From Maritimibacter dapengensis (GTDB taxonomy: Bacteria; Pseudomonadota; Alphaproteobacteria; Rhodobacterales; Rhodobacteraceae): a stretch of DNA of 34,505 nt. A program made the translations under genes and the position numbers. The stretch is taken from assembly GCF_019218265.1 (NCBI RefSeq), contig NZ_JAHUZE010000009.1:1-34505 (forward strand). Direction: 5' to 3'. Below, one piece after another: positions 2,936-27,725 of the stretch. How positions within the stretch are numbered: the first letter of the stretch is position 1; each line of letters starts with the position of its first letter. The notes under the pieces were generated by a model that was not told the origin of the DNA, did not search any database, and was given only the letters and a program-made list of their open reading frames with translations.

Positions 2936-3039
2936 CTTCGCCTCACTGATCGAACGTTAAGGCACGCTATCATCTGACTACTTAGATGTCTATGTTTTTT
3001 GCCGCACTTCAAGAGATAGCCGGGTCGCGATAACCGCTA

Positions 3040-9201: not shown

Positions 9202-9258
9202 TAAGAACAGCTTTAGAATTGTCAAGAAATAAGACATCTAAATTAGAGGGCGCAAGTC

Positions 9259-11127: not shown

Positions 11128-12120
11128 TTAAAGGCTGTAGGCTTCTAGGGTCGAGGGATGGAACAGTTCTTCGATCTCCACCCGGCGCGGAGACAGACCT
11201 TGACTCGCGTGGTAATCCAAAAACTTGTTCAGGACATGGGCGTTGCCGCCGACGCCATAGCTCCAGGGATCGTCTCCCATCAGCGCATGCACGCGGTTGA
11301 GATTATCCTCGACGAAGGGCATCGTTACCTTCGTTGCCGAGGTGTCAGACAGAGCTTCTTCTGCCAGCAGCTTCGATTGCGTGAACGCCTTGAGCAGGGC
11401 GGCGGGTAGGAACGGGTATTCTTCTGCGAGGCTGCGGCGCACCCCAAGAACATGCATGATCGGAAAGATCTGGGTCTTTTCGTAATAGGCTTCGGCCGTA
11501 GCGATGCTGTCTGCAAAGAGCCGACCTACGTGCGGATGCCGCTCGGCGAAACAACGCGGCCAACGCGGGCCGATGAAGCCGTCGATCTCACCGGCCTCGA
11601 GCATGCCATTCAACGTGCTGCCCACCGGCGCCTCTTCCATGCGGATATCGTCGGGCAACTGAACCTTGATCTTTTCGGGCCGGCCCGGCGTATCCATACC
11701 GCCGCGCACCCAGATGATATCGGAGGGTTTGACGCCGTATTCCTCTTCGAGAATGCCGCGCACCCAGACATTGGCAGACAGCTGGTATTCGGCAATGCCA
11801 ATGCGCTTGCCCTTCAGATCCTGCGGCGTGTCGATCCCTTTGTCGGTTCGAATGTAGACTGAAGTGTGACGGAACGCCCGGCTCAGAAAGACCGGGATCG
11901 CGACATAGTGCGGATTTCCGCGGGCGACCGAGATCGAATACGAGGACAACGAAATTTCGCTGATATCGAACGCTTCGTGGCGGAACGCCCGGAAGAACAT
12001 TTCTTCTGGGGACAGTAGCATGGGAACGGGATCGACACCGTCTATCTGCACTCTTCCATCCACAATGGCACGCGTCCGGTCATAGTTTCCCATGGCAAGG
12101 GATAGTTTGAGACTGCTCAT
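11128..12120 (-). CDS. pht5: 4,5-dihydroxyphthalate decarboxylase
   Basis: This 330-residue cytoplasmic enzyme would decarboxylate 4,5-dihydroxyphthalate to protocatechuate, the last step of the upper phthalate pathway. The N-terminal signature LSLAMGNYDRTRAIVDGRVQIDGVDP and the segment LLSPEEMFFRAFRHEAFDISEISLSSY are typical of this family, which has a periplasmic-binding-protein-like fold but no signal peptide. The length matches the family (about 330). The start codon overlaps the stop of the dihydrodiol dehydrogenase (ATGA), and a GGAGGAAC Shine-Dalgarno lies about nine bases upstream. Neighbouring dehydrogenase, reductase and oxygenase genes support the assignment strongly. A substrate-binding protein of the same fold was considered, but it would need an export signal and a transporter operon. 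Confidence 0.85.
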   Translation of the reverse strand: MSSLKLSLAMGNYDRTRAIVDGRVQIDGVDPVPMLLSPEEMFFRAFRHEAFDISEISLSSYSISVARGNPHYVAIPVFLSRAFRHTSVYIRTDKGIDTPQDLKGKRIGIAEYQLSANVWVRGILEEEYGVKPSDIIWVRGGMDTPGRPEKIKVQLPDDIRMEEAPVGSTLNGMLEAGEIDGFIGPRWPRCFAERHPHVGRLFADSIATAEAYYEKTQIFPIMHVLGVRRSLAEEYPFLPAALLKAFTQSKLLAEEALSDTSATKVTMPFVEDNLNRVHALMGDDPWSYGVGGNAHVLNKFLDYHASQGLSPRRVEIEELFHPSTLEAYSL

Positions 12121-13304
12121 CCTGTTTGTTCCTCCTCACTTGTTTTGCATTGTTGCCGCAAATCGACAGGTTGGCCGGTCGAGGCGGACTGCAGGATCGC
12201 ATGGCAAACCTCCAGGCTTGCCAGACCCCATGCGCCTGTCTGGACGGGGGCCCTGTTCTGGCGGACAGCGGCTACCAGTGCATCGTTCACGGTTCTACGT
12301 GGCGCGGGCCCGAATGTCACTTCGATGAAGCCACGCTCGGTGTCACCAAATACTTCAACTCCGTCCGGAGTCAGCTTTAGGTCGGCACGGTCGCAAAGCG
12401 CGATGACTGGGCCAAAATGCTCGTTGTGCTTTGCGTCGACCGTCTTACCGCTGCCGAATGTGCGCGTCGTCTTGAGGCGCGCCTCGTCATCGGGATCGAG
12501 GTCCATCAGCGCCCGCCTTGCATCGCCATAGGCGCCGGCGAGTTTTCGCTGCCCCAGCTCTCCGACGTCGTTCATCCAAATGTCGCTATCGAAATGGGCA
12601 TAGCCCGAATAGGTGAGATTGGCGACGCATCCACCCTCAAAGTTCATCAGCGCCGTAAAGGCGCCTTCTGTTGGACGCTTTGGATCCCATGCCCCGGTCA
12701 TGGCATAAATCTTCTCTCCCATGCCGCCCGCAAGCCGTCGGACCACGTCGATCTGGTGGATGGCCTGGCTGAACAGCACCCCTCCTCCTTCTTCGGTGCG
12801 CAGCTCCTCCGGGCGTCGGGGACGATACAGGAAGTCAGTGTAGTTAAGGGCCTGGATCATTCTCAGCTGGCCGAACTTGCCGCTCGCGATCAACTGCGCG
12901 GCCAGCTCGACCGGCGGATCGAAACTGTGGCTGGGCCCAACGATCAGGTGAACCCCCGCCTCGTTCGCGGCGGCGACCATGGTCTCGGCGTCTTCCATCG
13001 AGATCGCGAGCGGCTTTTCCACGAGAATGTGCTTTCCAGCGCGCGCCGCGGCCAGAACGTGATCTACATGCATTTGGTGCGGGGTGGCGATGTAGATCGC
13101 TTCCACAGATGGATCGGCGCATAGTTCCTCGACAGTCGGATAGGCGACACCGCCGTATTGCTCTTCGAATGCGGCCCGGCTTTCCGCCCTCGGCGCGGCC
13201 GCGGCCGTGAGCTTGACGCGTGCGTCGGCATCAAAGGTGGGGACCATCAGCATGAAAGCCCGCCCCAATCCCGCAACTCCGAGGCGGACGGGATCAGAGG
13301 TCAA
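12117..13304 (-). CDS. pht4: Phthalate 4,5-cis-dihydrodiol dehydrogenase (Gfo/Idh/MocA family)
   Basis: This 395-residue NAD(P)-dependent dehydrogenase would rearomatise 4,5-dihydro-4,5-dihydroxyphthalate to 4,5-dihydroxyphthalate. The N-terminal Rossmann motif is GVAGLGRAF (residues 9-17), the cofactor-side motif EKPLAISMEDAE is near 95, and the C-terminal Gfo/Idh/MocA domain contains GGGVLFSQAIHQIDVVRRL. I choose the TTG at 13302-13304. It has GGGGAGG seven bases upstream and puts the first beta strand near the N-terminus; the longer frame to 13337 would overlap the reductase gene by 44 bp. With the TTG, the overlap with the reductase stop is 11 bp. The 3' end overlaps the pht5 start. Pht4-type enzymes belong to this family rather than to the short-chain dihydrodiol dehydrogenases. 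Confidence 0.87.
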   Translation of the reverse strand: MTSDPVRLGVAGLGRAFMLMVPTFDADARVKLTAAAAPRAESRAAFEEQYGGVAYPTVEELCADPSVEAIYIATPHQMHVDHVLAAARAGKHILVEKPLAISMEDAETMVAAANEAGVHLIVGPSHSFDPPVELAAQLIASGKFGQLRMIQALNYTDFLYRPRRPEELRTEEGGGVLFSQAIHQIDVVRRLAGGMGEKIYAMTGAWDPKRPTEGAFTALMNFEGGCVANLTYSGYAHFDSDIWMNDVGELGQRKLAGAYGDARRALMDLDPDDEARLKTTRTFGSGKTVDAKHNEHFGPVIALCDRADLKLTPDGVEVFGDTERGFIEVTFGPAPRRTVNDALVAAVRQNRAPVQTGAWGLASLEVCHAILQSASTGQPVDLRQQCKTSEEEQTG

Positions 13305-14232
13305 GAACCAGCCTCCCCGATAGCGCGCGCGATACACAAATCATTATATGGTCGCTTTTTTCCTCTTCCATAAGCACCATGTCGCGATGGTCAGCTTCCC
13401 CTTCGAGGAGGCGGATCTTGCAGGTGCCGCATGTGCCACTTTCACAGGAGCTGGACGTTGCGAATCCGGCGTCACGCAATGCCTCCAAGATCGAACGATC
13501 TTCGGGCACCGTGACGGTTTCGCTACTTTTTTTCAGCTCCACTTCGAAAGAGACATCGTCTTGGCGCACCACATCGACGGGCTTGAAATCCTCGAAGTGA
13601 ACTCGCCCCTCCGGCCAGTGCCCGGAAACGGCCTTGATTTCATCCATCAGCGGTTTCGGACCACAACAGAAGACGTGAGTGGCACGGGGCGTGACGAGAT
13701 CGTCCCAGAAATCGTAGACTGCATCCGGAGCGCCGCCGTCATGGTGCACAATGATCCGGCCATCGAAATCTCTCATCAGTTCATCCAGATAGGCCGATTC
13801 CTCCGGACTGCGGCTGACGTAGATGATTCTGAGCATCTTGCCCTTCTTGTCGAGATACCGTGCCATCGACAGAATCGGCGTGATCCCGATACCGCCGGCG
13901 ATGAGCAGGTACTTCTGAACATCGGTTAGCGGGAAATCGTTTTCCGGGAATTCGACTGTCAACTCGGACCCGACGGTCGCCTGTTCGTGCATCGACGCGG
14001 AGCCCCCACGCGAATTCGGTTCTCTTTTGATCGCGACAACAAATTCCTTTGGGTCGCTGCCATCGTTGATCAGTGAATAGCGACGCATCGCTCCGGACGG
14101 AGTTTCCAAGGTGATGTGAGCACCAGGATCGAAACTAGGGAGCACATCGGCCCCAACCGGCACCAGGGTGAATTCGGCGATGCTCGGGGTCAAGTCACGC
14201 CGTTTCTCGACGCGCATCTTGATATTCTCCAT
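13294..14232 (-). CDS. pht2: Phthalate 4,5-dioxygenase reductase
   Basis: This 312-residue iron-sulfur flavoprotein passes electrons from NADH to the oxygenase. The domain order is that of phthalate dioxygenase reductase and VanB: an FMN domain with RRYSL near residues 50-54, an NAD domain with GGIGITPILSMAR, and a C-terminal plant-type [2Fe-2S] domain with C263-x4-C268-x2-C271-x27-C299. The start has GGGAGG five bases upstream. It is the first gene of the unit reductase, dehydrogenase, decarboxylase, unknown protein, EamA. Its promoter (TTGACA at 14293-14288) contains the putative operator at 14267-14280. The oxygenase lies upstream in a separate unit, with an FMN oxidase gene in between. 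Confidence 0.88.
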   Translation of the reverse strand: MENIKMRVEKRRDLTPSIAEFTLVPVGADVLPSFDPGAHITLETPSGAMRRYSLINDGSDPKEFVVAIKREPNSRGGSASMHEQATVGSELTVEFPENDFPLTDVQKYLLIAGGIGITPILSMARYLDKKGKMLRIIYVSRSPEESAYLDELMRDFDGRIIVHHDGGAPDAVYDFWDDLVTPRATHVFCCGPKPLMDEIKAVSGHWPEGRVHFEDFKPVDVVRQDDVSFEVELKKSSETVTVPEDRSILEALRDAGFATSSSCESGTCGTCKIRLLEGEADHRDMVLMEEEKSDHIMICVSRALSGRLVLDL

Positions 14233-14266: not shown

Positions 14267-14280
14267 TTTAGATAGCTAAG
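14267..14280. promoter_or_regulatory. Operator TTTAG-ATAG-CTAAG in reductase promoter
   Basis: This inverted repeat lies between TTGACA (minus strand, 14293-14288) and TAAACA (14270-14265), which are 17 nt apart. The ten bases GATAGCTAAG recur exactly upstream of the MarR gene at 21951-21960. It is one of five related sites (16977, 21094, 21947, 27712). Confidence 0.65.
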
Positions 14281-14361: not shown

Positions 14362-15504
14362 TTACCGTCGAATTTCGACGTTGAAATCAGAGACCGCAGA
14401 CACGGATCTTGCGCCCATAAAGGTCATGGTCCTCGTCATCTCCTCTTCAAGGATCGAAAGCGCCCGTGACACGCCCGCCTCGCCTTGCGCCGCCAAGCCA
14501 TAGAGCGGCGCGCGACCCAGCAGAATGCCCTTCGCACCCAAGGCGAGGGCTTTCACGATGTCACTGCCGCGACGAATGCCGCCGTCCAGCAGAACCGGAA
14601 ACTTCCGATCAAGAGCCGCGATGATATCTGCGAGTACGTCGATGGTGGCAGGAGCGCCATCAAGCTGACGGCCACCATGGTTCGAGACGACGATTCCATC
14701 CACACCGGCGCGTTGCGCGTCAATCGCATCTTCTGGGCACATGATACCCTTGATCAGCAGCGGGCCTTTCCATTTCTCCCGAATGCGGCGAACATCTCCC
14801 CAAGAAAACTCCGGGTTCCGCTGAGATCGGGTAAACTCGGCCAGTTCTCTGTCGCTCGCGCTGTTTCCGACAAAGTCCAAGAGGTTCTCAAGTCTGGGAC
14901 GGTGCGGCCCGAGCCATACGGAGGTCAGCCAAGCAGGATGCAGAAGCCCATCGAGAACAGTCCGAGGGCCAATGCGGATTTCGTGGGCGAAGCCGTGCCG
15001 CAGATCACGTTCGCGCTTGCCGCCCACGAGTGAATCGACAGTCAGTACCAGAGCCGAGTAACCGGCCGCCTGTGCCCGGTCGATCAGCGCATCAGCGAAT
15101 GCGCCCTTCCCCCACGGATAAAGCTGGAACCAGAGGGGACCCTTGCTCCTCCGCGCGATCTCTTCCAGCGTCGTGTTCGAGGCGGTCGAAACCGTGAACC
15201 CGACCCCGGCTCGTTCGGCCGCAGCGGCGAGGTGCAGATCTCCCTGGGGCCAGTAGAGGCCGTTCAGCCCTGTCGGCCCTATGAAAAACGGCTTCGAGTA
15301 TGTTTCCCCGAACAGCTCCAAGGTGAGATCGACGCTCCCCCCTTTGAGGATTCGCGGCGTGAGAACGATATTCGTGAAGGAACTGCGATTGTGCCGCAGC
15401 GTCACCTCCGATTCCGCGCCCCCATCCAAATAATCGAACACCACCCGTGGCAGGCGACGCCGTGCCTGCGCCCGCAAGTCTTCGATATTGATTGCTGTCG
15501 TCAT
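14362..15504 (-). CDS. FMN-dependent alpha-hydroxyacid oxidase/dehydrogenase
   Basis: This 380-residue enzyme of the lactate/mandelate/glycolate oxidase family oxidises an L-2-hydroxyacid to the 2-oxoacid. N-terminal RRLPRVVFDYLDGGAESEVTLRHN, the FMN-binding TGLNGLYWPQGD region, the catalytic SNHGGRQLDGAPA and GGIRRGSDIVKALALGA are all intact. It has no extra membrane insertion that I can see, unlike mandelate dehydrogenase, so it is probably soluble. It is downstream of the phthalate oxygenase gene in the same unit and is separated from the reductase by the promoter at 14288. It has no known step in the phthalate pathway. Together with the ThDP enzyme at 23320 and the aldehyde dehydrogenase at 26200 it could make a mandelate-like route. 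That is inference. Confidence 0.88.
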   Translation of the reverse strand: MTTAINIEDLRAQARRRLPRVVFDYLDGGAESEVTLRHNRSSFTNIVLTPRILKGGSVDLTLELFGETYSKPFFIGPTGLNGLYWPQGDLHLAAAAERAGVGFTVSTASNTTLEEIARRSKGPLWFQLYPWGKGAFADALIDRAQAAGYSALVLTVDSLVGGKRERDLRHGFAHEIRIGPRTVLDGLLHPAWLTSVWLGPHRPRLENLLDFVGNSASDRELAEFTRSQRNPEFSWGDVRRIREKWKGPLLIKGIMCPEDAIDAQRAGVDGIVVSNHGGRQLDGAPATIDVLADIIAALDRKFPVLLDGGIRRGSDIVKALALGAKGILLGRAPLYGLAAQGEAGVSRALSILEEEMTRTMTFMGARSVSAVSDFNVEIRR

Positions 15505-15631: not shown

Positions 15632-16912
15632 TTATTCCGCCGCTTCCGTCTTGCTCGACGTGTCCACCAGTGTTCGCCAATCGACGTCCTTAGGATACAC
15701 TCCCTCGTGAGAGGCGATTACCCTTTGCGGAATCTTCGAGTCGGTGCCGATTGCCTGGCCACCTTCGGCGACTTTCTTTGCCGCATCGGCCATGAGGCGG
15801 CGGAACTCGACAATCGCCAGGTCGGAGGCCCCAAGAATGTCCGTGTGACGCTGTACGCGGCTACCCATCGAAACCCACATCACAATATCTTCGTTCGGAA
15901 TGCCGTCCACGCCGGTAAAGTGGCCCTCTTTCATCCTTTCTCGGTCCTGCTTGAAGTCGTTCTCCAACGTCCGGAGAGAGCGCCATTTGTGGTCCACGTC
16001 CTCACCCGGTACGGCATGGGCAAACTTGCGCCACTCTTCAGTGGAGGGAACGTTCGGTCCGTCGAAGGCTATGAAGTGAAACGCTGTCTCATCGTCATTG
16101 ATCGGCACGATGACGCTGGCGACCCGGTAGTTGTTGTTCGGCGGAATCAGCGAATAATAGGGCGCGATAAATTCGGTGATCCGGAGATAGTTGTGCGTCT
16201 GAGCGTTTTTGATCGGCTTACGGATCGCCGCGTAATGGAAACCGTAGCTCGTGGTTTCAGTCTGCATACGCGGAGATTTGTCTGTCGATGGGCGGTACCA
16301 TGATTTGTCGTCCGCCGCGGCGCCCTCGACCCGTGCCGGAACCATATTCGAGGAATGGAGCGATGATGAATGCGCGCTATCGATCTGGCCCTCGTGAATC
16401 TGCGCCCAGTTGGCGGGCACGCGAATCTTCAGGATCGAAACTGGGGTGTCTTCGGTTGGCGCAAAGGCCGGCGGCTGGAACTCGGGCATATCATCTTTCT
16501 CGCCGAGCCAAGCCCAGACGAAGCCGCCCCACTCCCGCACGGGGTAGGAACGATGTTTGACCTTGTCCATCAATGGACTGCCTTCCGGCTCTGAAGACAT
16601 TGCGACGACATTGCCTTCAACATCCATCTTCCAGCCGTGATAGAGGCAGCGCAGCCCACATTCCTCGTTACGGCCATAGACCAGAGAGGCCTTTCTGTGC
16701 GGGCAAAGCTCATCCAGCATTCCCAGACGACCCTTGGTATCCCGGAACGCGACATAGCTTTCGCCGAGAACTTCGACTCGAAGCGGTTTGCCGTCCGACT
16801 CTTCAACCTCTTCGATCAGGCATACAGGCGTCCAATGCTGACGCATAAGTCGCGCCATCGGGGCATCCCCCGTTACGCGTGTAAGCAGTTCATTCTCTTC
16901 GGGTGTAAGCAT
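15632..16912 (-). CDS. pht3: Phthalate 4,5-dioxygenase, oxygenase component
   Basis: This 426-residue Rieske non-haem iron oxygenase would add dioxygen to phthalate to give the 4,5-cis-dihydrodiol. The Rieske ligands are C70-P-H72 and C89-L-Y-H92. The mononuclear iron site motif D178-x2-H181-x4-H186 lies in IDSAHSSSLH. The length is close to the phthalate dioxygenase oxygenase (about 440), and it lacks a beta subunit, as that homo-oligomeric class does. The start has GGAGGAG five bases upstream. It is the first gene of its unit with the FMN oxidase and has the operator at 16977-16990. The pht-type reductase, dehydrogenase and decarboxylase nearby support phthalate as substrate; a related aromatic acid cannot be excluded. 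Confidence 0.85.
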   Translation of the reverse strand: MLTPEENELLTRVTGDAPMARLMRQHWTPVCLIEEVEESDGKPLRVEVLGESYVAFRDTKGRLGMLDELCPHRKASLVYGRNEECGLRCLYHGWKMDVEGNVVAMSSEPEGSPLMDKVKHRSYPVREWGGFVWAWLGEKDDMPEFQPPAFAPTEDTPVSILKIRVPANWAQIHEGQIDSAHSSSLHSSNMVPARVEGAAADDKSWYRPSTDKSPRMQTETTSYGFHYAAIRKPIKNAQTHNYLRITEFIAPYYSLIPPNNNYRVASVIVPINDDETAFHFIAFDGPNVPSTEEWRKFAHAVPGEDVDHKWRSLRTLENDFKQDRERMKEGHFTGVDGIPNEDIVMWVSMGSRVQRHTDILGASDLAIVEFRRLMADAAKKVAEGGQAIGTDSKIPQRVIASHEGVYPKDVDWRTLVDTSSKTEAAE

Positions 16913-17223
16913 CTGGGCTCCTCCAATGGCATCCGACTCTTTCAGTGGATGAGTGGTTTTCGACCTCTCAACTATTCTTAGCTCTCTAAGTTTTATCTGT
17001 CAACGTAACCTGCCACTTTTTTTTCCCGCGTTGTAGGTATCGACCTAACTTGTTGTCCGAAATAGCGGGTTCTGAACTAGATCAAGCTGACGAGATCGCA
17101 AAACCGAGATACTTTCGCGCAATTGTGGTCCGGAACCTCCCCGACAGCGGCTTGCCGGGCCCGTCTCTGAGGTGTCATGGCAGCCAGCCTGTGCATAAGT
17201 CGCGGCAAGCGAACCATCTCGCT
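16913..17223. other. Intergenic region upstream of phthalate oxygenase
   Basis: This stretch of about 311 bp holds the oxygenase promoter and operator at its left side (16975-17003). The rest lies downstream of the TRAP-associated membrane protein. I see no further gene or strong terminator in it. Confidence 0.5.
16977..16990. promoter_or_regulatory. Operator CTTAG-CTCT-CTAAG in phthalate oxygenase promoter
   Basis: This perfect 5-bp inverted repeat sits between TTGACA (minus strand, 17003-16998) and TAAGAA (16980-16975), 17 nt apart. Its placement relative to the -35 is identical to that of the site at 14267-14280. Confidence 0.68.
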
Positions 17224-17999: not shown

Positions 18000-19904
18000 C
18001 TAGGCACTGTCCACGCGGGCGTTTTCTGTCGTGAATGCGATCTGCCGGAATAGCATTGCGACAATCACTAAAATACAGATCGCGGATACCGCCAAGTAAG
18101 GGCTTACGGCGCCAATCGCAGCGATTGGCAGTACGCCCCGTTCGACTGCACTGAGTTGCGTCTTGACCAAGCCTTCCAGAGAGGCTGCGACCGCGAGGGC
18201 TCCGGCAAACGCACCCACGACGGCCAAGGTGTTTGCCAGGGGGCCAAGTTCTAGGAGGATACCCGGGTTCCACACGAAGGCGAAGGGCAGCAGGAAGCCG
18301 ACGACGGCTAGCCGGACTGCAGAGAACGCGATCTTGAAGGGGTCTTCGTCGGCAATCGCTGAGGCCGCGATTGCAGCCACAGCAATCGGTGGCGTCAGTG
18401 CCGAGAGAATCGCGTAGTAGAGCAGAAACATCTGGCTCGGCAACGTCGGGAAACCGAGCTTTGCCAGCGCCGGTCCGACCAGCACGGCTGCCAGGATATA
18501 CGCACTGGGCGTTGGCATCCCGAGACCGAGAACAATCGTGACGACCGCGGCGATAACGAGTGTCAGCAGTGGTTGCATGTTGCTGACAGTCAAAATGACG
18601 TTCGCGGATTTCATTCCAAGGCCGGTCATCGACAAGCCGCCAATCACAAGACCGGCCGCGGCACAAGCGCCGGCGACTGGCAGAATCTGGAGCGTAGTCG
18701 CCCCCAGCCCTTCCACCAACTGCCACAGTGACAGCCGTGTGTCTTTCAGCATCATCGCGGACAGGATGGTTACCAGAACTCCGACACCGGCTGTGAAGGT
18801 CGGGGAATACCCCAGAATGAGGGCGACGATGATGCCGATGATCGGCAGCAGGAAAACCCATCCGGTCCTGAATGTTTCCTTTGCTGAAGGTATTTCGTCT
18901 GCAGAGGGTCGAAGGTTGTGCTTGACTGACCGGAAGTGAACCTGAGCGAAGACACCCGTGTAGTATAGAAGCGCCGGCACCAGAGCGGCGAGCACGATGG
19001 CGTTGTAGGAAATGCCGGAATACTCGGCCATGATGAAGGCTGCTGACCCCATGATCGGAGGCATCGCGCTTCCGCCAGACGACGCCGCGACTTCCACCGC
19101 CCCCGCGAACCGTGCCCGATAGCCGAGTCGCTTCATGACAGGGATCGTGATCGACCCCGTTGCAACAACATCGGATGTTGGGCTCCCGGACATCGTGCCG
19201 TACAGGCCCGACGAAATGATCGCGATTTTGGCGGGGCCGCCGCGCGCATTGCCGGTCACAAGCGCTGCAAGGTTGAAAAAGAAGTCCCCTCCCCCGGCCT
19301 TGGCCAGGAATGTTCCAAACATCACGAACAGGAAAACATAGCTGGCAACGACCTGAAGCGGCACGCCAAAAAGTCCATCGGTGGTGAAAACCAGAATATC
19401 CAAGAGATAGCTGAACTCGCTGACGCGATGCCCGAATGGCGGCGGCAGAAGAGAGCCAAACAGATTATAAATCAGGAAGAGGGCGACAACGCCGGTCAGG
19501 CCTAGGCCGGTGGTCCGGCGGGTCGCTTCGATGGTCAGAAACAACAAGGCTGAGCCAAAGAAAAACTGATCGGTTGTGAATTCGTCGAGTAGACTGATCC
19601 GGTCCGCAATCGCTCCCGAGGTCACGTAGAAATACACCCCTGTGGCCAGGCTCAGCGCAGAGAGAACCCAATCATAGATCGGAATGCTGTCCGGCGCGCG
19701 CGAGGTCGCGCCGATCGCGAGGAAGAGAATCGTGAAAATGCCCGATACGAACAGAATGCCCTGAATGAGCGGATCGGAGATGATGAAGAGGTTCGAGTGG
19801 ATTACCCAAACCGCGAATGCCGCCGCCAGAACCATGACGATGGTTCTCATCGGCGAGCCTAAATTTCTACGACGACCGGTTTCTGTAAGCGAAGGAAAAT
19901 TCAT
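18000..19904 (-). CDS. TRAP transporter permease, fused DctQM type (TAXI family)
   Basis: This 634-residue inner-membrane protein has many hydrophobic helices: an N-terminal DctQ-like part (about residues 20-160) fused to a DctM-like ion transporter part. Family motifs include GLYGTMSGSPTSDVVATGSITIP and the related GLGMPTPSAYILAA, as well as AASSGGSAMPPIMG. Fused permeases are typical of TAXI-TRAP systems, driven by an ion gradient. The binding protein is encoded just upstream at 20071-21060 in the same direction. The ATG at 19902-19904 has GGGG five bases upstream; an internal ATG at residue 19 is an alternative. Phthalate or a related aromatic carboxylate is the expected substrate from the surroundings, unproven. 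Confidence 0.92.
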   Translation of the reverse strand: MNFPSLTETGRRRNLGSPMRTIVMVLAAAFAVWVIHSNLFIISDPLIQGILFVSGIFTILFLAIGATSRAPDSIPIYDWVLSALSLATGVYFYVTSGAIADRISLLDEFTTDQFFFGSALLFLTIEATRRTTGLGLTGVVALFLIYNLFGSLLPPPFGHRVSEFSYLLDILVFTTDGLFGVPLQVVASYVFLFVMFGTFLAKAGGGDFFFNLAALVTGNARGGPAKIAIISSGLYGTMSGSPTSDVVATGSITIPVMKRLGYRARFAGAVEVAASSGGSAMPPIMGSAAFIMAEYSGISYNAIVLAALVPALLYYTGVFAQVHFRSVKHNLRPSADEIPSAKETFRTGWVFLLPIIGIIVALILGYSPTFTAGVGVLVTILSAMMLKDTRLSLWQLVEGLGATTLQILPVAGACAAAGLVIGGLSMTGLGMKSANVILTVSNMQPLLTLVIAAVVTIVLGLGMPTPSAYILAAVLVGPALAKLGFPTLPSQMFLLYYAILSALTPPIAVAAIAASAIADEDPFKIAFSAVRLAVVGFLLPFAFVWNPGILLELGPLANTLAVVGAFAGALAVAASLEGLVKTQLSAVERGVLPIAAIGAVSPYLAVSAICILVIVAMLFRQIAFTTENARVDSA

Positions 19905-20053: not shown

Positions 20054-20070
20054 GGATCGCGGGATCGACC

Positions 20071-21060
20071 TTACTTGAGCAGACCCAGTTCCTTGTAGGC
20101 ACGCTCCGCACCAGGATGGAACGGCAGCGTGGTCTGCGACGTCAGAAGTTCCGGTGTGAGCGCCTGCATCGCCTTATGCACGCCGCGGATCTCGTCGATA
20201 TTGGACGCGATGCTCTTTGCGAGCATGTAGCCAGTTTCTTCCGGCAGTACATCGGAAGTGATTACCATCGCACCCAGTGCGAGCGTGACGACATCTTCGG
20301 TCTGGTTCTTGTAGCTGTCGGCTGGAATTGTGAACGTGCCGGTTCCGAAACGCTCGTTGGTCGCAGCGATGATGTTTTCGGGAACGCTGAGCAACACGAC
20401 GTCATTGCCCTCGTCAACTTTACGGAACGACGAATGTCCGATGAAAATGCCGTTGATCACCATATCGGTGCGGCCGTCTGCAATCAGATCTGCTTGCTGT
20501 GACGAACCACCGCGGACAAGCACGCCGCCATTGGACTCGATCGTGGCTTCGTCGTAGCCCGCCTCTTCGAGCATGAAGGTCGTGATGTTGGCGACGATGT
20601 TCCCGGCATTGTTGTTCGCAACACGGATCGCCGCGCCGGACGTCGCGAGGTCGTCAATGCTGTCGATGCCATATTCTTCGGCAAGAGACTTCTTGATGAA
20701 GAAGTGCATCGGCGCCCAGTTGTACATGTAGCCGATGGCTTGAAGGTTCTCGATCGGCGCGTCAAACGGTTCGTCCCCTGCGAGGGCCAGCTTGATCTCG
20801 GCATCATGTGCCATCCCCAGGTCGGTCCGTTCACGGCCCAGAAGGCCGATGTTCGCAAAGCCACCACCGGTGGCCTGATAAGTCACCACGCCGCTCGGGT
20901 CATCCGCCTTGACGGCACGGTCAATACCAGCGCCCAGAAGCGACCAAAGCCCCGAGGGACTGCCGCCTGAAAGGGTCACATTAACGCTTTCTGCGGAAGC
21001 AGCGCTCGAAAGGACCGCGACGCCGATCGATGCGGCAACGGCTTTGATTGGAAATTTCAT
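20071..21060 (-). CDS. TAXI-family TRAP transporter solute-binding protein
   Basis: This 329-residue periplasmic binding protein has a Sec signal peptide MKFPIKAVAASIGVAVLSSAASA, with cleavage likely after residue 23. The mature start VNVTLSGGSPSGLWSLLGAGIDRAV matches the TAXI (TRAP-associated extracytoplasmic immunogenic) family, as does ATGGGFANIGLLGRERTDLGMAHDAE. The start has GGGAGG five bases upstream. It is the first gene of the uptake operon with the fused permease at 18000. The upstream region carries an operator-like site at 21094-21107, matching those of the phthalate units. TAXI proteins bind organic acids; an aromatic dicarboxylate is the best guess here. Confidence 0.92.
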   Translation of the reverse strand: MKFPIKAVAASIGVAVLSSAASAESVNVTLSGGSPSGLWSLLGAGIDRAVKADDPSGVVTYQATGGGFANIGLLGRERTDLGMAHDAEIKLALAGDEPFDAPIENLQAIGYMYNWAPMHFFIKKSLAEEYGIDSIDDLATSGAAIRVANNNAGNIVANITTFMLEEAGYDEATIESNGGVLVRGGSSQQADLIADGRTDMVINGIFIGHSSFRKVDEGNDVVLLSVPENIIAATNERFGTGTFTIPADSYKNQTEDVVTLALGAMVITSDVLPEETGYMLAKSIASNIDEIRGVHKAMQALTPELLTSQTTLPFHPGAERAYKELGLLK

Positions 21061-21371
21061 ATCTTCCTCCCTGTTTTGCAGTAGACATCTAATATTAGAT
21101 ATCTATCTTTAAGGCTACTAGTCTATCCACTCGCACCCGTCAACCCTGATTGATGTCGAGGCAATCGCGCAGCGAAAGCCATTCAGGACACAGTTCCTGA
21201 CCCGGAACACGCCGAAGCCGTGTGTCCGGCGTAGGTGCTTTGACGTGACGCACTATCAACCCGTGGAGCCCCGGAGCAGCAGGCCTCAAACCCCCGCCCC
21301 CATAGGCTCTCTATGTCCGCCACCGCCATTGAATGGCCCGCGCCGGACCCTCGGCACGCATGGCTCGCGAT
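21061..21371. other. Intergenic region between TRAP binding protein and MarR
   Basis: This 311-bp stretch holds the operator-like site (21094-21107) and an imperfect hairpin (21202-21229, CCGGAACACG with TGTGTCCGG) that may end the MarR transcript. It also holds one arm of an inverted repeat flanking the MarR gene (21328-21346). No gene is seen. Confidence 0.45.
21094..21107. promoter_or_regulatory. Operator-like site ATTAG-ATAT-CTATC upstream of TRAP binding protein
   Basis: It contains the 10-bp palindrome TAGATATCTA, matching the TTAG-N4-CTA core of the four other sites. It also overlaps a second palindrome, ATCTAATATTAGAT (21087-21100). It lies 34 bp before the start codon, downstream of a possible TTGACG -35 on the minus strand. 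Confidence 0.45.
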
Positions 21372-21929
21372 TCAGTTTGCTGTGTTGCCCTTGGTCGGGG
21401 GAACACGGACCCCTCTGGCGGCCGCATCCTGTTCGTCATTTTCGAGGTTCCGGATCATCACGGCAAGTGCGTGTCGCAAGTCTTCCTGAGCTTTCTTGGA
21501 CAGTCCCGCCATCGCTGCATCGTTCACTTCGAGCGCCAGAGGTTCGAGAACGTCGCGCAGCTCCAAGCCCTTCCGCGTCAGAAACGCGTGCTGGCGCCGT
21601 TTGTTGCCCTCGACGTTGCGTCGCTCTATGAAACCCAATTCTTCCATTTTGATGAGCGCGGTGTGGGCGGTGGGTTCGGTGAGATGCGCCCGGTCGCTCA
21701 GTTCGCGTTGCGACAACCCGTCTTCCTGCCAGAGGATGCGCAGGAAAATCCACTGACCGAACGTAACATTTTCCGTTTGCAGTCGAAGTTGAAGCGCCCG
21801 GTTGAACCCGCGGGCCGCCAGTCGTACCAGCCGGGCCATGCGCTCGTCGGGTTGGACAGGTACGTGGCTTGATTGCTTTTCTTTCATCGCATCGCTCACG
21901 GCCTGTCTCCACACATGGTTTTTATCCAA
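21372..21929 (-). CDS. MarR-family regulator, likely repressor of the phthalate/TRAP regulon
   Basis: This 185-residue MarR protein has its winged helix at about residues 60-125 (FGQWIFLRILWQEDGLSQRELSDRAHLTEPTAHTALIKMEELGFI, then wing RRNVEGNKRRQHAFLTRKGLELRDVL). The start is the ATG at 21927-21929; an ATG 14 codons later is an alternative. Eighteen bases upstream lies ACTTGATAGCTAAG, of which GATAGCTAAG is identical to the site in the phthalate reductase promoter. The simplest model is autoregulation plus repression of the phthalate units, the TRAP operon and the aldehyde dehydrogenase-nadC unit, relieved by an aromatic ligand. This is inference from shared sites. The gene is flanked by an inverted repeat. 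Confidence 0.88.
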   Translation of the reverse strand: MDKNHVWRQAVSDAMKEKQSSHVPVQPDERMARLVRLAARGFNRALQLRLQTENVTFGQWIFLRILWQEDGLSQRELSDRAHLTEPTAHTALIKMEELGFIERRNVEGNKRRQHAFLTRKGLELRDVLEPLALEVNDAAMAGLSKKAQEDLRHALAVMIRNLENDEQDAAARGVRVPPTKGNTAN

Positions 21930-22285: not shown

Positions 22286-23320
22286 TCAGTTCAGATCGTT
22301 CAACTTTTGTCGCCAGCGTTCCACCACATCGGGGTTCCTGACATATGTCGGCAGATCACCTTTCATGATGCGTGTTGCGTTTTCGACGAGGACGTCGGGC
22401 ATGACCGTGTAGAGATCAATGGTGTGGCCCAGGATATGCGGGGTGAGGATCACCCGGTCGAGGCCGCGCAGCGGGTGGTCGGCGGGCAGCGGTTCGGTTT
22501 CCGTCACGTCCAGCCCCGCACCGGCCAGGTGTCCTGCTGTCATCACCCGCACCAGCGCATCCTCGTCAATGAGACCCCCGCGCGAGGTGTTGATCAGAAC
22601 CGCATTTGTCTTCATCGCGCGCAGTTCCGCCTCGGCAATCATGCCTCGCGTCTGCGCGTTGAGCGGCACATGCAGGCTGACCACATCGGACGTGGTCAGC
22701 AGCGCGTCGCGCTCCACCAACCGTACGCCCGCGGGTGCGGTGTCAGGTGTCAGGAACGGATCGTGCACCAGGATCTGTGCCGGCTCGAACGCCAGCAGTC
22801 GCTCGATCACCCCGGCCCCAATCCGGCCAGACCCGATCAGGCCGATCGTCCGGCCCCGCACCATCCGCGCATACATCTGCTGCGGCCGGCCCGCATTTTC
22901 GCGTAGCAGGCGTTCGGATTCATGCAGCCGGTACAGCAGCACCAGCATCAGCATCACTGTCGCCTCTGACATCGCCAGAAAGTTCTCGGGCGTTGCACCA
23001 TTGGCCACGATCAGACCACGCGCGGCACAGGCCTCCAGATCGACCGCATCCACCCCGATCGTCGGAAAGACCAGCGCCCGCAGCCGTGGTGAGGCATCCA
23101 GATCCGCCTCGCTCAGCCGCGACCGCGAGCTGGCCACGATGATATCAACGTCCGACAGCAGCGCCTGCCGTTGCTCTTCCGTCAGCCGCAGCGGAACACC
23201 CGGGGTGATCTGGGGGCCGCGAACGACCTCCCAGCCTTCGGCCCGCAGCCGATCCGTTGCGGTGTCCAACACCTCTTCCAGCACAGGATCCTGCGCAATA
23301 TAGATCTTCGGGGTCATCAT
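22286..23320 (-). CDS. D-2-hydroxyacid dehydrogenase, NAD-dependent
   Basis: This 344-residue protein of the D-isomer-specific 2-hydroxyacid dehydrogenase family interconverts a 2-oxoacid and a D-2-hydroxyacid. The NAD motif GLIGSGRIGAGV lies near residue 158. The catalytic Arg is in NTSRGGLID, the Glu in DVTETEPLP and the His in LTPHILGHT. The start overlaps the stop of the ThDP enzyme gene by one base (TGATG), so the two are co-translated. Paired with a 2-oxoacid decarboxylase-type enzyme, it probably handles the same 2-oxoacid. Two ATGs in a row begin the gene; the first has GGAG five bases away. The exact substrate, such as glyoxylate, an aryl 2-oxoacid or phosphoglycerate-like acids, is not visible. 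Confidence 0.86.
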   Translation of the reverse strand: MMTPKIYIAQDPVLEEVLDTATDRLRAEGWEVVRGPQITPGVPLRLTEEQRQALLSDVDIIVASSRSRLSEADLDASPRLRALVFPTIGVDAVDLEACAARGLIVANGATPENFLAMSEATVMLMLVLLYRLHESERLLRENAGRPQQMYARMVRGRTIGLIGSGRIGAGVIERLLAFEPAQILVHDPFLTPDTAPAGVRLVERDALLTTSDVVSLHVPLNAQTRGMIAEAELRAMKTNAVLINTSRGGLIDEDALVRVMTAGHLAGAGLDVTETEPLPADHPLRGLDRVILTPHILGHTIDLYTVMPDVLVENATRIMKGDLPTYVRNPDVVERWRQKLNDLN

Positions 23321-25089
23321 CAGTCGCTCCGCGTCAGGCCAGCGACCATGTTGGGGTTATACCCCGGCTGGACACGTGCATCGATCACTACGCTCTTGCC
23401 CGCGCGCACCATCTCGACGCCCTGTTTGATCGCCTCGACCAGCTCGCCCGCGGTAAAGACCGGGCCGATCCCTTCGCAGCCCTGCGCCCGCGCAACTCCG
23501 GCAATGTCGATATCCGGATCACCGATACGCTGGCCGATCCACTTGTTCTCGACCGGGCGGTTGCGGGCCACTGCCACGCGTTCCTGGTGCACCTCGTCAT
23601 TGTAGAACGAGCGATTGTTCGACACCACCGCCAGGAACGGAGTGCCATAATGCGCCGCCGTCCAAAATGCCGAGGCCGCCATCATGAAGTCGCCGTCCCC
23701 AAGAACCGCAACAGGCAGCCGGTCGCTGTCTTTCAGCGCCAGCGCCGCCCCGATCAGCATCCCAGGACCCGAGCCGATCCCCGCGCCGCCATCCGAACCC
23801 AGGAAGTCCAGCGGATGACGGAAGTGCCACGCCTCGCCCGCCCAACCCAACGGCCAACGCACAAAGCTGGCACAGACACCTTCCAAACCTTCGCCAAGCG
23901 CCCCGGCCAGCGTCATGATATCAAGCTCAACATCTGCATCGGGGGCGTTCAGCGCGGGTTTGACCGGCAAATCACCGGGCATCTCGCCCGCCCCTACACC
24001 CAGGGCATCGGCAATCGCATGCATCGCAACATCCGGGCCACAGGCCAGGTGCAGATCCAGCGCAGGCAGCGCCTGATGCTCCATCCCCCAGCCATTGTGC
24101 AGCTGATAATCCAGCGACGCCTGGATCACCTGCGCCGTCACTTCGCCCGCCAGTTTCAGCGTACCCGCGACATCCAGCCAGTCCAGACTCAGGATCACAT
24201 CGGCCTCGCGCAGCACCGCGCCCGCCGCGTCGTCGATGAAGAAGGCTGGTTTACCCCGATGCCGCGGGTGATCCGTCGGGAAAGACGCCCCGATCCGGAT
24301 ATCCGTCAGAACCTTCGCCCCCAGCCCCTCGACAAAGGCCACACGCCGCGCCCAATCCGCCGGATCGCGCGACACCCGCCCCGCCAGCACCACAGGCGCC
24401 TTGGCGTTCTTCAGCAGGTCCGCCGCACGTGCCACGCCTTCGGCCGAAGGAGCCGCAGGCAAAGGCGGCTGGTAACGCGCAAAATCCGGCAGCGCCGGGG
24501 CCTGCGCGTGCTGCTTTTCCTGGATCGACACATCAAAGTTCACATAGGTCGGCCCTTTCGGCTCGCTCCGCGCGATCACATCCGCACGCAACATCGATTC
24601 CAGCGCCGCCTCCATCGAGCCAGGCTGATCGTCCCATTTCACATAATTCCGGATCATCGACGCCTGGTCACGGCAGGTATGGAGCCAGTCAATCCAAGGA
24701 CGCCGCAGCGCCGCATCAACCGGCCCCGTCGCACCATAGATCAGCACAGGAACCCGATCACACCATGCGTTGAAGATCGCCATCGTCCCATGCATCAGAC
24801 CCACGTTGCTGTGCAGAATCACCGCCAATGGCTCCCCCGTCACCTTCGCATAGCCATGTGCAATCGCAACCGCATGCTCTTCGTGCAGACACAACAGCAT
24901 CTGCGGATCTTCATTACCAAGGTGGTTCACAAGGCTGTCATGCAAACCCCGAAAGCTCGACCCAGGGTTCAGCGCAACATACTTCACCCCCAAACCTCGC
25001 AACATATCCGCAAATACATCGCTACCCCAAACTCCCAAACTATCCGACGATACTGGGCGCTCAACCTGATACAGCCTGTGCTCTGTCAT
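23320..25089 (-). CDS. Thiamine diphosphate-dependent enzyme, 2-oxoacid decarboxylase/acetolactate synthase-like
   Basis: This 589-residue ThDP enzyme has the domain order PYR, central and PP. The catalytic Glu is in LCLHEEHAVAIAHGYAKVTG (E70/71). The central domain begins near residue 205. The ThDP/Mg motif GDGDFMMAASAFWTAAHYGTPFLAVVSNN is near 465-493. The sequence resembles acetolactate-synthase-like and benzoylformate decarboxylase-like catabolic enzymes rather than the biosynthetic IlvB. The start has AAGGAAAGG nine bases upstream. It is the first gene of a pair with the D-2-hydroxyacid dehydrogenase, separated from nadC by a hairpin. An aryl 2-oxoacid decarboxylase role would fit with the FMN hydroxyacid oxidase (14362) and the aldehyde dehydrogenase (26200), but that is inference. 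Confidence 0.85.
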   Translation of the reverse strand: MTEHRLYQVERPVSSDSLGVWGSDVFADMLRGLGVKYVALNPGSSFRGLHDSLVNHLGNEDPQMLLCLHEEHAVAIAHGYAKVTGEPLAVILHSNVGLMHGTMAIFNAWCDRVPVLIYGATGPVDAALRRPWIDWLHTCRDQASMIRNYVKWDDQPGSMEAALESMLRADVIARSEPKGPTYVNFDVSIQEKQHAQAPALPDFARYQPPLPAAPSAEGVARAADLLKNAKAPVVLAGRVSRDPADWARRVAFVEGLGAKVLTDIRIGASFPTDHPRHRGKPAFFIDDAAGAVLREADVILSLDWLDVAGTLKLAGEVTAQVIQASLDYQLHNGWGMEHQALPALDLHLACGPDVAMHAIADALGVGAGEMPGDLPVKPALNAPDADVELDIMTLAGALGEGLEGVCASFVRWPLGWAGEAWHFRHPLDFLGSDGGAGIGSGPGMLIGAALALKDSDRLPVAVLGDGDFMMAASAFWTAAHYGTPFLAVVSNNRSFYNDEVHQERVAVARNRPVENKWIGQRIGDPDIDIAGVARAQGCEGIGPVFTAGELVEAIKQGVEMVRAGKSVVIDARVQPGYNPNMVAGLTRSD

Positions 25090-25221: not shown

Positions 25222-26073
25222 TCAGAAATCCAAACCGAAATCGACGGTCCCCGCCGAATGGGTCAAAGCACCGGAGGAAATATAATCCACATTTGCCGAT
25301 GCGATTTCGCGCAAACGGCCAAGGGTCACATTCCCGCTGGCTTCTGTCTTCGCCCGCCCGTCAATGCGCTTTACGGCTTCGGCCATGTCTTCGGTCGACA
25401 TATTGTCAAACATGATGACATCTGCGCCCCCGGTCTGAAGCACCTCGTCCAACTGATGCAAACCGTCGATCTCGATCTCGACCACGACCATGTGACCCAC
25501 ATTTCGCTGAACGGCTTCCAACACCTGTTTGATGCCACCAGCCGCTGCGATATGGTTGTCCTTGATCAGGATTGCATCGGACAGGGAAAACCGGTGATTG
25601 TGGCCGCCGCCATGCAAAATCGCGAGTTTCTCGACAAGCTTCAGCCCCGGTGTGGTTTTGCGTGTACAGGTGATACGTGTCTTGGTACCCGCAAGTTCCT
25701 GCACATAGGACGCTGTCAAAGTTGCCGTCCCGGACAACCGCCCGGCAAAGTTCAGGGCAACACGCTCTGCGGCAAGGATCGACGCCGCCGATCCCTCTAT
25801 ACGCATCAAGGTATCGCCCGTTTTGCAGGCCGTACCATCCGCGACAACAGTCTCGACAATAAGATCGGGATCAATCAGCCGAAACGCCAGAGAGGCCACC
25901 TGCATCCCAGAAACAACCGCGTCCTGCCGTGCACGCATTTGCGCCTTGTAGCGCGTGCCTTCAGGCAGAACGGAACGGGTTGTCACGTCGCCTGCTGCAC
26001 CCAGGTCCTCCACAATGGCGTTCCGAACCATAGGTTCGAGGATGATATCGGGGACGTTCGCAACATTGCTCAT
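25222..26073 (-). CDS. nadC: Nicotinate-nucleotide pyrophosphorylase (carboxylating), QAPRTase
   Basis: This 283-residue enzyme converts quinolinate and PRPP to nicotinate mononucleotide in de novo NAD synthesis. The N-terminal domain begins IVEDLGAAGDVTTRSVLP. The barrel motifs TCTRKTTPGLKLVEK, GGGHNHRFSLSDAILIKDNH and EASGNVTL carry the Arg, Lys and His residues expected to hold the two substrate carboxylates and PRPP. The usual Gly after HR-x is Ser here (HRFSLSD). The length is normal. No nadA or nadB is present, which is unusual. It follows the aldehyde dehydrogenase gene by 127 bp on the same strand and may share its operator-controlled promoter (27712). Phthalate resembles quinolinate, so this may be a spare or phthalate-tolerant copy. 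That role is inferred. Confidence 0.9.
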   Translation of the reverse strand: MSNVANVPDIILEPMVRNAIVEDLGAAGDVTTRSVLPEGTRYKAQMRARQDAVVSGMQVASLAFRLIDPDLIVETVVADGTACKTGDTLMRIEGSAASILAAERVALNFAGRLSGTATLTASYVQELAGTKTRITCTRKTTPGLKLVEKLAILHGGGHNHRFSLSDAILIKDNHIAAAGGIKQVLEAVQRNVGHMVVVEIEIDGLHQLDEVLQTGGADVIMFDNMSTEDMAEAVKRIDGRAKTEASGNVTLGRLREIASANVDYISSGALTHSAGTVDFGLDF

Positions 26074-26199: not shown

Positions 26200-27678
26200 T
26201 TACTGACCCGACAGATTGATATGCACATTCTTTTCATGGGTGAAGGAAATCAGCTCGCCAATACCTTCTTCGCGCCCGATACCCGATTGTTTGACCCCAC
26301 CGAACGGGGCACCAAGGAAATGCCGGCCAACTTCGTTAACCCAAACAAACCCGGCCTCGACACGAGCAGCCGTGCGATGAGCCGTAACCAAGTCCCGAGT
26401 CCAAATTGCGCAGGTCAGCCCCAGCTCAAGTGCGTTGACCTCGTTCAGCATGGAATCTTCGTCCGACCATTTGCGGACCGCCAGAACTGGCCCGAAAATC
26501 TCTTCGCGAGCGATACGCATCTGCGGCGTTACATCCGCAAAAATCGTCGGCGCGATGAAGCTTCCCTGTGCCAGCGCACCTTCGGTCACCGCATGGCCGC
26601 CGGTTACGGCACGCGCGCCTTCGCTCATGGCGGATTCGATGAAGTCCATGATCCGATCGAACTGTGTCCGGCTGACGATCGCCCCCATCGTGGTCTCCGG
26701 CTCTGTCGGAATGCCTGGCTTGTACCGTTCGACAGCCGCTTTGAGATGTGAGATGACCGCATCGTGGATGTCTACATGCAAGAAAGCGCGGCTCGTCGAT
26801 CCGCAAGATTGCCCGCACCAGCCGAAATTCATGCCGCCGACGATCGCATCGGCGATCTTCTTCGGATCGCTGTCCGGATAGGCGATCAGCGCGTTCTTGC
26901 CGCCGAGTTCGAGCAGCACTGGTTTGACGGTGTCGCTCGCGCTGCGCATCACCGCCCGGCCCGCGGGTACGGAGCCGATGAGTGTGACCTTGGCGACGTC
27001 GGGATGTTCGGCCAGCCCAGCTCCTGCCTCGACGCCGCCCGGCAGAACATTGAACGTGCCTTTAGGCAGCAGGCCATCGATGAGCTCCGCCAGCCGCAGC
27101 GAAGACAACGGAGCCTGAACCGGCGGCTTGATGATGACGGCATTGCCTGCGGCCAGAGGCGCTGCCATCTTTCCGCCGCAGAACATGAACGGATGATTAA
27201 AGGCAAGAATCCTTGCAACCACGCCCATCGGCTGGCGTAGGGTCATGTTGATGCGCTCTGGTCCCATAGGGATCGTATCACCCTTCATTTCGGTCACAAG
27301 ACCGGCGAAAAACTCCATCTGCGCTGCCGCAATCGCGGCGTCGCCGCGCATTTCAGTATAGGGGTTGCCACAGTTTGCAGCGTCCATCATCGCCAGTTCA
27401 TCGCCATGCTTTCGCAAGAGATTTGCGATTTCCTTCAGGATACGTGCGCGTTCCAGCGGCACAACATCCCGCCATACCTCGAACCCTTCTTTCGCTGCCG
27501 CAACCGCCGCATCGACATCGGCGCGACTTGCCGTCGCAACCGACCCGATCCGCTCGCCGGTTCCTGGGTTGAAAGTGTCTTCGTACTTTCCCTCTAGTGG
27601 CGGCACCCATGCGCCGCCGTAGTAGAGATGGGCTGGTTCTTGAAGAGAGAGCTTCGCGTCTAGTTTCAGATTTTCCAT
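26200..27678 (-). CDS. NAD(P)-dependent aldehyde dehydrogenase
   Basis: This 492-residue cytoplasmic aldehyde dehydrogenase oxidises an aldehyde to the acid. The catalytic residues are N161 (FNHPF), E257 (LELGGKNALIAY) and C292 (GQSCGST). The cofactor-loop GSVPAGRAVM is near 235, and the C-terminal PFGGVKQSGIGREEG is intact. Full family length (about 490). The ATG at 27676-27678 has GGGAGG nine bases upstream. Its promoter TTGACA-N17-TTATTA (27734-27706) contains the operator-like CTTAG-ACTT-CTAAA at 27712-27725. nadC follows. An aromatic aldehyde is a reasonable substrate, given the ThDP enzyme and hydroxyacid oxidase in the window. Sequence alone does not settle it. Confidence 0.9.
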   Translation of the reverse strand: MENLKLDAKLSLQEPAHLYYGGAWVPPLEGKYEDTFNPGTGERIGSVATASRADVDAAVAAAKEGFEVWRDVVPLERARILKEIANLLRKHGDELAMMDAANCGNPYTEMRGDAAIAAAQMEFFAGLVTEMKGDTIPMGPERINMTLRQPMGVVARILAFNHPFMFCGGKMAAPLAAGNAVIIKPPVQAPLSSLRLAELIDGLLPKGTFNVLPGGVEAGAGLAEHPDVAKVTLIGSVPAGRAVMRSASDTVKPVLLELGGKNALIAYPDSDPKKIADAIVGGMNFGWCGQSCGSTSRAFLHVDIHDAVISHLKAAVERYKPGIPTEPETTMGAIVSRTQFDRIMDFIESAMSEGARAVTGGHAVTEGALAQGSFIAPTIFADVTPQMRIAREEIFGPVLAVRKWSDEDSMLNEVNALELGLTCAIWTRDLVTAHRTAARVEAGFVWVNEVGRHFLGAPFGGVKQSGIGREEGIGELISFTHEKNVHINLSGQ

Positions 27679-27711: not shown

Positions 27712-27725
27712 CTTAGACTTCTAAA
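27712..27725. promoter_or_regulatory. Operator CTTAG-ACTT-CTAAA in aldehyde dehydrogenase promoter
   Basis: It is placed in the spacer between TTGACA (minus strand, 27734-27729) and TTATTA (27711-27706), 17 nt apart. It is related to the sites at 14267 and 16977, which sit in the same promoter position. It ties the aldehyde dehydrogenase and perhaps nadC to the phthalate regulon. Confidence 0.6.

Follow-up and report, generated by a model that had tools for sequence, protein, structure and literature searches.

A second nadC gene among phthalate genes of Maritimibacter dapengensis, probably encoding an accessory quinolinate phosphoribosyltransferase

The window analyzed here is a stretch of 34,505 nucleotides from Maritimibacter dapengensis, a member of the Rhodobacteraceae, and corresponds to the entire contig C9 of the 3.96 Mb genome. 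It contains an intact nadC gene, hereafter nadC2, which is located between genes for an aldehyde dehydrogenase and a thiamine-diphosphate enzyme, and a set of genes for the degradation of o-phthalate. The neighbors were named by superfamily, PDB match or the annotation of a relative, as most NCBIfam equivalog names scored below their cut-offs. The genes are:

26200..27678, minus strand: aldehyde dehydrogenase, upstream of nadC2 on the same strand with a gap of 126 bp; a relative in CP031591.1 is annotated phdK (2-formylbenzoate dehydrogenase)
25222..26073, minus strand: nadC2, accessory copy of quinolinate phosphoribosyltransferase (carboxylating nicotinate-nucleotide diphosphorylase), assigned by TIGR00078 and ligand residues
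23320..25089, minus strand: thiamine-diphosphate enzyme of the benzoylformate-decarboxylase type, downstream of nadC2; all NCBIfam matches below cut-off, a relative annotated mdlC
22286..23320, minus strand: D-2-hydroxyacid dehydrogenase family protein
21372..21929, minus strand: MarR family regulator, also found in most related clusters
20071..21060, minus strand: TAXI-family solute-binding protein of a TRAP transporter (TIGR02122, above cut-off)
18000..19904, minus strand: TRAP transporter fused permease (TIGR02123, above cut-off); listed ORF start, the real start may differ
15632..16912, minus strand: oxygenase component of an o-phthalate 4,5-dioxygenase, pht3/ophA2 type, by PDB matches; a relative annotated pht3
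14362..15504, minus strand: FMN-dependent alpha-hydroxyacid oxidase/dehydrogenase (lldD family)
13294..14232, minus strand: phthalate dioxygenase reductase type protein; a relative annotated ophA1
12117..13337, minus strand: Gfo/Idh/MocA dehydrogenase, pht4 type; a relative annotated pht4
11128..12120, minus strand: 4,5-dihydroxyphthalate decarboxylase, pht5 type; a relative annotated pht5
8779-9180: Rieske ferredoxin gene
2111-2935: gene with a relative annotated as universal stress protein

The open reading frame of nadC2 encodes 283 amino acids, and its product scores 307.9 bits against the nadC model TIGR00078 (cut-off 198.4). In an alignment it carries R104, R138, K139, H160, R161, K171, E201, D223 and N224, the first of which we also count, as an assumption, among the ligand or catalytic residues. 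The other eight were matched by motif to eight of the residues listed in PMC3633916, which also names a glutamine. nadC2 is thus a member of the NadC family of quinolinate phosphoribosyltransferases and is predicted to be catalytically active. A previous reading, made from the sequence only, had described a complete nadC without nadA or nadB; the reading frame is as described, and none of the ORFs of the window that were searched against NCBIfam or Pfam matched NadA or NadB. Likewise, tblastn with NadA and NadB queries gave no match in a 20.8 kb stretch of Salipiger bermudensis (L004) with near-identical genes. In the whole genome, nadA is matched only once, on contig C1, where a second nadC directly follows nadA and nadB in a nadABC operon. 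Its product, NadC1, is 65% identical to nadC2 and contains the motif HRYSLSD in place of HRFSLSD. The sequence-only reading had regarded a single nadC in the genome as incompatible with its proposal; because NadC1 exists in nadABC, nadC2 is a spare copy rather than the sole nadC of the genome.

The assignment of the region to phthalate, also made in that reading, is borne out by the PDB matches of the oxygenase, which aligns with 7fjl (and also with 7v25 and 7v28; all listed as Rieske domain protein) at an E-value of 6e-174 and with 7fhr (listed as putative phthalate 4,5-dioxygenase subunit alpha) at 7.4e-60. We take 7fjl, 7v25 and 7v28 to be the phthalate dioxygenase of Comamonas. The phthalate cluster spans 11128-21060, and the window contains two MarR regulators. 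Beyond the cluster, pcaI, pcaJ, pcaF and a gene of the protocatechuate dioxygenase family are found on the other strand. The alpha-hydroxyacid oxidase (14362-15504), the genes at 22286-25089 and the aldehyde dehydrogenase (26200-27678) accompany the phthalate genes; enzymes resembling benzoylformate decarboxylase and 2-formylbenzoate dehydrogenase occur in many relatives, the alpha-hydroxyacid oxidase in fewer. These three enzymes could, as a prediction, convert 2-carboxymandelate or phthalonate via 2-formylbenzoate to phthalate.

The aldehyde dehydrogenase gene ahead of nadC2 had been noticed to share an operator-like motif with the phthalate genes, and counting supports this. With at most one mismatch, the palindrome TTAGANNTCTAA occurs seven times in the window, compared to 0.25 expected, a number reached in 0 of 100 shuffles; with up to two mismatches, 11 sites are found versus 4.34 expected. 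All seven sites are located 21-66 bp upstream of a start codon, and the zones 15-75 bp upstream of listed starts make up about 5% of the window. One site each precedes the genes for the aldehyde dehydrogenase, the Rieske oxygenase, the reductase, the Rieske ferredoxin and the gene at 2111-2935, and two precede the TAXI gene:

27713..27724, plus strand: palindrome TTAGACTTCTAA, without mismatch, 35 bp ahead of the start of the aldehyde dehydrogenase gene
21081..21106, plus strand: two palindromes that precede the TAXI gene by 21 and 35 bp
16978..16989, plus strand: palindrome upstream of the oxygenase gene
14268..14279, plus strand: palindrome upstream of the reductase gene
9230..9241, plus strand: palindrome upstream of the Rieske ferredoxin gene at 8779-9180
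2982..2993, plus strand: palindrome upstream of the gene at 2111-2935

This arrangement looks like a MarR regulon that comprises transport, oxygenase, reductase, ferredoxin, aldehyde dehydrogenase and the gene at 2111-2935, and the MarR protein encoded at 21372-21929 is a candidate for the regulator that recognizes the palindrome. The aldehyde dehydrogenase-nadC pair of Thioclava is again closely preceded by a perfect site, whereas in genome G001 nadC follows the oxygenase gene and a site is found ahead of that oxygenase gene; thus, the position of nadC varies, yet the same operator is kept. Clusters that lack nadC contain the palindrome as well (two sites in Marinibacterium, four in Roseivivax), which marks it as an operator of the phthalate regulon rather than of nadC. 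nadC therefore appears to have joined a phthalate regulon marked by this putative site. No site was found in 19 kb around the housekeeping nadABC operon, where 0.04 would be expected by chance, which indicates only that nadABC is outside the regulon. Between 22200 and 28600, a sigma-70 promoter scan returned no hit versus 2.4 expected and four terminator-like sites were found versus 4.9 expected, and the two scans are therefore uninformative on transcription units. Readthrough from the aldehyde dehydrogenase gene into nadC2 across the 126 bp gap is assumed, and the one observation behind an induction of nadC2 by phthalate is the common operator-like palindrome.

The sequence-only reading had further predicted that nadC co-occurs with phthalate genes in other genomes, and this is indeed the case, though far from universally. 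Among the best 80 of 577 confirmed NadC loci, all 80 from named genomes, 75 have nadA and/or nadB adjacent, two lie with phthalate genes and three are at contig ends with neither. Two nadC genes above the cut-off were detected in 3 of 120 genomes of the phylum, namely that of M. dapengensis, G456 and G548. In a sample of 398 genomes of the phylum, four others carry pht5; nadC lies near it in G456 (at 5.7 kb) and G810, and not in G800 and G524. In one family of the same phylum (f87), pht5 is present in 17 of 275 genomes, and 11 of these 17 contain an intact second nadC 3.2-4.1 kb from pht5; it is broken in two and missing in four. None of the nine pht5-negative f87 genomes tested, out of 258, has two nadC genes (eight have one and G817 has none). 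The broken accessory genes (L224 in G1052 and L225 in G1071) lie beside phthalate genes and have an in-frame TAG in one matched piece each.

On plasmids, nadC was found in 10 of 23 regions around pht5, five of which had been picked with nadC already known; a second batch of 14 regions contained it in only two. These 23 regions were examined among 60 records listed of 75 with pht5, and they span 14-18 kb on each side of pht5, less at record ends. The nadC-containing regions belong to Thalassospira, Thioclava, Limimaricola (where the gene is unannotated and cut by the record end), Phaeobacter, Polaromonas, Neptuniibacter, Sphingobium, Acidovorax, Novosphingobium and Massilia. The 13 regions without nadC, a few of which are not clearly full phthalate clusters, are from Cupriavidus, Martelella, Rhizobium (two), Sulfitobacter, Roseivivax, Variovorax, Pseudomonas luteola, Roseomonas, Caballeronia, Methylocella, a Comamonadaceae strain and Marinibacterium. 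Since nadC is absent from 4 of 17 f87 genomes, 13 of 23 plasmid regions and G524, its presence near pht5 is helpful at most. Near-identical clusters reside on Phaeobacter and Salipiger plasmids. Genome G004 carries the phthalate cluster twice; one copy (L117, 7440-10109) gives only partial matches to nadC2 and to the thiamine-diphosphate gene, and nadC2 of the other copy is intact. On plasmid pLX02 of Thioclava nitratireducens, PLSDB predicts a BKC-1 beta-lactamase (L143, 28189-28401) at the record origin, about 11 kb from pht5; this is an annotation only.

A phylogenetic analysis suggests that the cluster copies do not share a single origin. In a quick tree of 100 rows, in which all NadC not found beside phthalate genes were treated as housekeeping and support is given by SH-aLRT only, all nine cluster copies from Rhodobacterales group in a single clade (SH-aLRT 100), which is nested in housekeeping NadC proteins of mostly Roseobacteraceae and Paracoccaceae. 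Other cluster copies are found elsewhere in the tree: in Thalassospira, in Sphingobium, in a Polaromonas/Acidovorax/G456 group and in an f87/Neptuniibacter group. The starred branches force at least four changes of label, and parsimony gives five, or six with two more cluster rows. A single mobile nadC lineage that spread together with the phthalate genes, and hence one clade of all cluster copies, was rejected by AU tests (p 8.9e-5 and p 3e-51). Pairs chosen after the tree had been seen were rejected as well, namely Rhodobacterales with Sphingobium/Novosphingobium copies (p 0.003) and Rhodobacterales with Thalassospira copies (p 0.0004). Thus, nadC has likely been recruited repeatedly from housekeeping genes, the label changes being gains or losses. 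nadC2 appears to descend separately from the other sampled cluster copies, and the likeness among cluster NadC proteins would then reflect role, not descent. Two metagenome-assembled contigs labelled Propionibacteriaceae and Sulfopaludibacter (L074 and L082) contain nadABC with a NadC that groups among alphaproteobacterial ones, and they are probably mis-binned.

If a spare NadC protects de novo NAD synthesis, phthalate degraders without this pathway should not need one. Rhodobacteraceae are suited to such a comparison, as no TIGR00078 match was found in 40 of 51 pht5-positive genomes of the family. The count was limited to the 23 genomes with pht5 at 57% identity or more; the best match in the other 28 is at most 46% identical and may represent other decarboxylases (one nadC each in G050, G130, G136, G215, G246 and G396, none in the other 22). 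A cluster nadC is present in 3 of 3 nadA-positive genomes (G000, G004 and G208, with the M. dapengensis genome among them) versus 1 of 20 nadA-negative ones (G393), which corresponds to a one-sided Fisher probability of 4/1771, or about 0.002, if the kinship of the three is ignored. However, the three are not independent: they share a nearly identical mobile NadC2, one is the genome under study and two belong to the same genus. Of the 20 nadA-negative genomes, G165, G228, G270, G279 and G390 are less than 90% complete; G129, in which the surroundings of pht5 showed no oxygenase gene and a different contig carries a broken nadC, was kept; in G175, a contig end is reached and the oxygenase was not seen there. 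G001 and G002 were left out since they had been found through their NadC2; the biased count that includes them is 5 of 5 (p 1.1e-4; 0.013 with one genome per genus). The association of cluster nadC with nadA in phthalate-positive Rhodobacteraceae is therefore suggestive only. Among the nadA-negative genomes, G376 is the clearest case and G393 the exception. The cluster of G376 is 87-99% identical to the window gene by gene, and only nadC is missing at that place, the gap between the aldehyde dehydrogenase and thiamine-diphosphate genes being about 190 bp, compared with 1.1 kb in the window; searches of this genome gave no nadA and no nadC. In G393, nadC2 is split into two overlapping fragments, both at contig ends (L233, 3-578, and L254, 2-412), and no nadA or other nadC was found there. 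The neighbors of this copy are mostly 95-100% identical to the window, which is consistent with a recent arrival.

Competition of phthalate with quinolinate is known from published work. According to PMC4726147, human QPRT binds phthalate with a Kd of 5.2 uM and quinolinate with a Kd of 4.8 uM; phthalate is described as a competitive inhibitor of the human enzyme in PMC7890081, and structures of the Mycobacterium and yeast enzymes with phthalate and PRPP are mentioned in PMC3633916. The statement that phthalate is a ligand of the NadC active site, on which the sequence-only reading had built, is thereby confirmed by the human Kd values and these structures. Against this background, nadC2 is most probably an accessory NadC which is made together with the phthalate genes and adds capacity against a phthalate block of NAD synthesis. 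Phthalate would enter through the TRAP transporter and fill the quinolinate site of the housekeeping NadC, thereby slowing NAD synthesis, while the phthalate pathway itself would consume NAD(H). nadC2 would be expressed from the aldehyde dehydrogenase promoter, whose MarR-type operator is shared with the phthalate genes, and would raise the total NadC capacity so that NAD synthesis continues. The intact second gene, the linkage to phthalate genes in multiple lineages, the common operator-like site and the link to nadA are observed; the competition of phthalate for the site comes from the literature, and induction, NAD limitation and rescue by nadC2 are inferred.

The sequence-only reading had left it open whether the gene is an inducible spare or a resistant NadC, and the two halves of this proposal fared differently: nadC2 is a spare, is linked to phthalate and shares the operator, but the case for resistance is weakened by unchanged ligand residues. 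It is conceivable, though doubtful, that nadC2 itself tolerates phthalate because it has evolved a preference for quinolinate, and is not just a matter of dosage. R138, K139, H160, R161, K171, E201, D223 and N224 are unchanged in all 24 aligned cluster copies; in a Massilia copy added later, outside these 24, the motif reads LLDDF, and Asn224 thus seems to be Asp. Since the listed residues are invariant in the 24, the cluster copies probably bind phthalate too, and more enzyme is therefore the simplest remedy. The serine of HRFSLSD, which had been pointed out as unusual and was considered as a mark of tolerance, proved to be ordinary: it is present in 61 of 168 NadC rows not beside phthalate genes and in NadC1, and the 24 cluster copies have Gly in 15 cases, Ser in eight (all Rhodobacterales) and Arg in one. 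Two other positions would fit tolerance. Adjacent to Asp223, which binds the ribose, 166 of 168 non-cluster rows have Leu at position 222, whereas this residue is replaced in cluster copies from separate places in the tree, by Phe in 8 of 8 distinct Rhodobacterales NadC2, by Val in Thalassospira and by Cys in Sphingobium and Novosphingobium. Furthermore, Arg145, found in 165 of 168 non-cluster rows, is Lys in 8 of 8 NadC2. However, Leu222 is retained in the f87, Polaromonas, Acidovorax, G456 and Neptuniibacter copies, and position 222 was picked post hoc after all columns had been inspected. Induced extra dosage accounts for the facts without resistance and is the likelier of the two. It is tempting to speculate that after several recruitments, four or more by the tree, several copies evolved discrimination against phthalate, for instance by the change of Leu222 to Phe, Val or Cys, and that such inhibitor-tolerant copies are kept mainly in hosts with de novo NAD synthesis; this wider scenario is regarded as rather unlikely.

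An improbable alternative is that the phthalate dioxygenase oxidizes quinolinate as a side substrate, thereby draining it, and that extra NadC competes for quinolinate. Relatively high activity on quinolinate is reported in PMC13040137 for the 3,4-phthalate dioxygenase of Rhodococcus erythropolis S-1; however, this enzyme belongs to another class than the 4,5-dioxygenase encoded here. A quinolinate drain predicts the same genome pattern as extra capacity against a phthalate block, and the two are not separated by the present data. It is very unlikely that nadC is a passenger, that is, a redundant housekeeping gene carried along by a mobile catabolic cluster without any link to phthalate. The mobility of the cluster, near-identical on plasmids of two genera, the truncated nadC in the second cluster of G004 and the many phthalate clusters without nadC fit a passenger, but several NadC lineages, varied positions within the cluster, a common operator and dependence on nadA would all be unexpected. 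The use of external quinolinate by nadC2, supplying NAD to hosts without nadA and nadB, would suit G393 but is hardly credible, as nadC2 is missing in 19 of 20 nadA-negative phthalate genomes and present in 3 of 3 nadA-positive ones, the opposite of what it predicts.

If nadC2 is accessory NadC capacity against a phthalate block, the wider pattern suggests that a single published case represents a recurrent evolutionary solution, in which a mimic of a cofactor precursor is met by a spare target enzyme. The tie to nadA further suggests that phthalate is a real inhibitor of NAD synthesis in nature, and it predicts which degraders of phthalate should benefit from added nicotinate, a point of relevance to strains used in bioremediation. 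Should any of the copies be selective, it would show how to tell quinolinate from phthalate, which human QPRT does not.

That published case is OphE. Chang and Zylstra (J Bacteriol 181:3069) reportedly described in 1999 a second, dissimilar quinolinate phosphoribosyltransferase, OphE, among the phthalate genes of Burkholderia cepacia DBO1, which is said to be induced by phthalate and whose loss is said to slow growth on phthalate. PMC6051330 states that OphE of this strain enhances growth on phthalate, and it also describes phtD of Sphingobium yanoikuyae SHJ, a nadC in an o-phthalate cluster with oxygenase, dehydrogenase, decarboxylase and MarR regulator genes. The idea of an accessory NadC is thus already published; several NadC lineages and a dependence on nadA were not found in the open-licence PMC literature searched. 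By description, nadC2 resembles OphE, as it lies among o-phthalate degradation genes in a genome with a dissimilar housekeeping nadC, the 65% identical NadC1. In contrast to the Burkholderiales cluster copies of Polaromonas, Acidovorax and Massilia, however, nadC2 groups with housekeeping NadC of Rhodobacterales, and it sits behind an aldehyde dehydrogenase gene and a MarR-type palindrome. Like phtD, nadC2 is part of an o-phthalate cluster with a MarR regulator, but the two are only 47% identical and belong to different NadC lineages, their joint grouping being rejected (p 0.003). NadC1 is of the same enzyme family as nadC2 and shares the motif HR[FY]SLSD, but is encoded beside nadA and nadB with no palindrome in the surrounding 19 kb. 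Taken together, nadC2 looks like a further, separately evolved example of the accessory NadC enzymes represented by OphE and PhtD.
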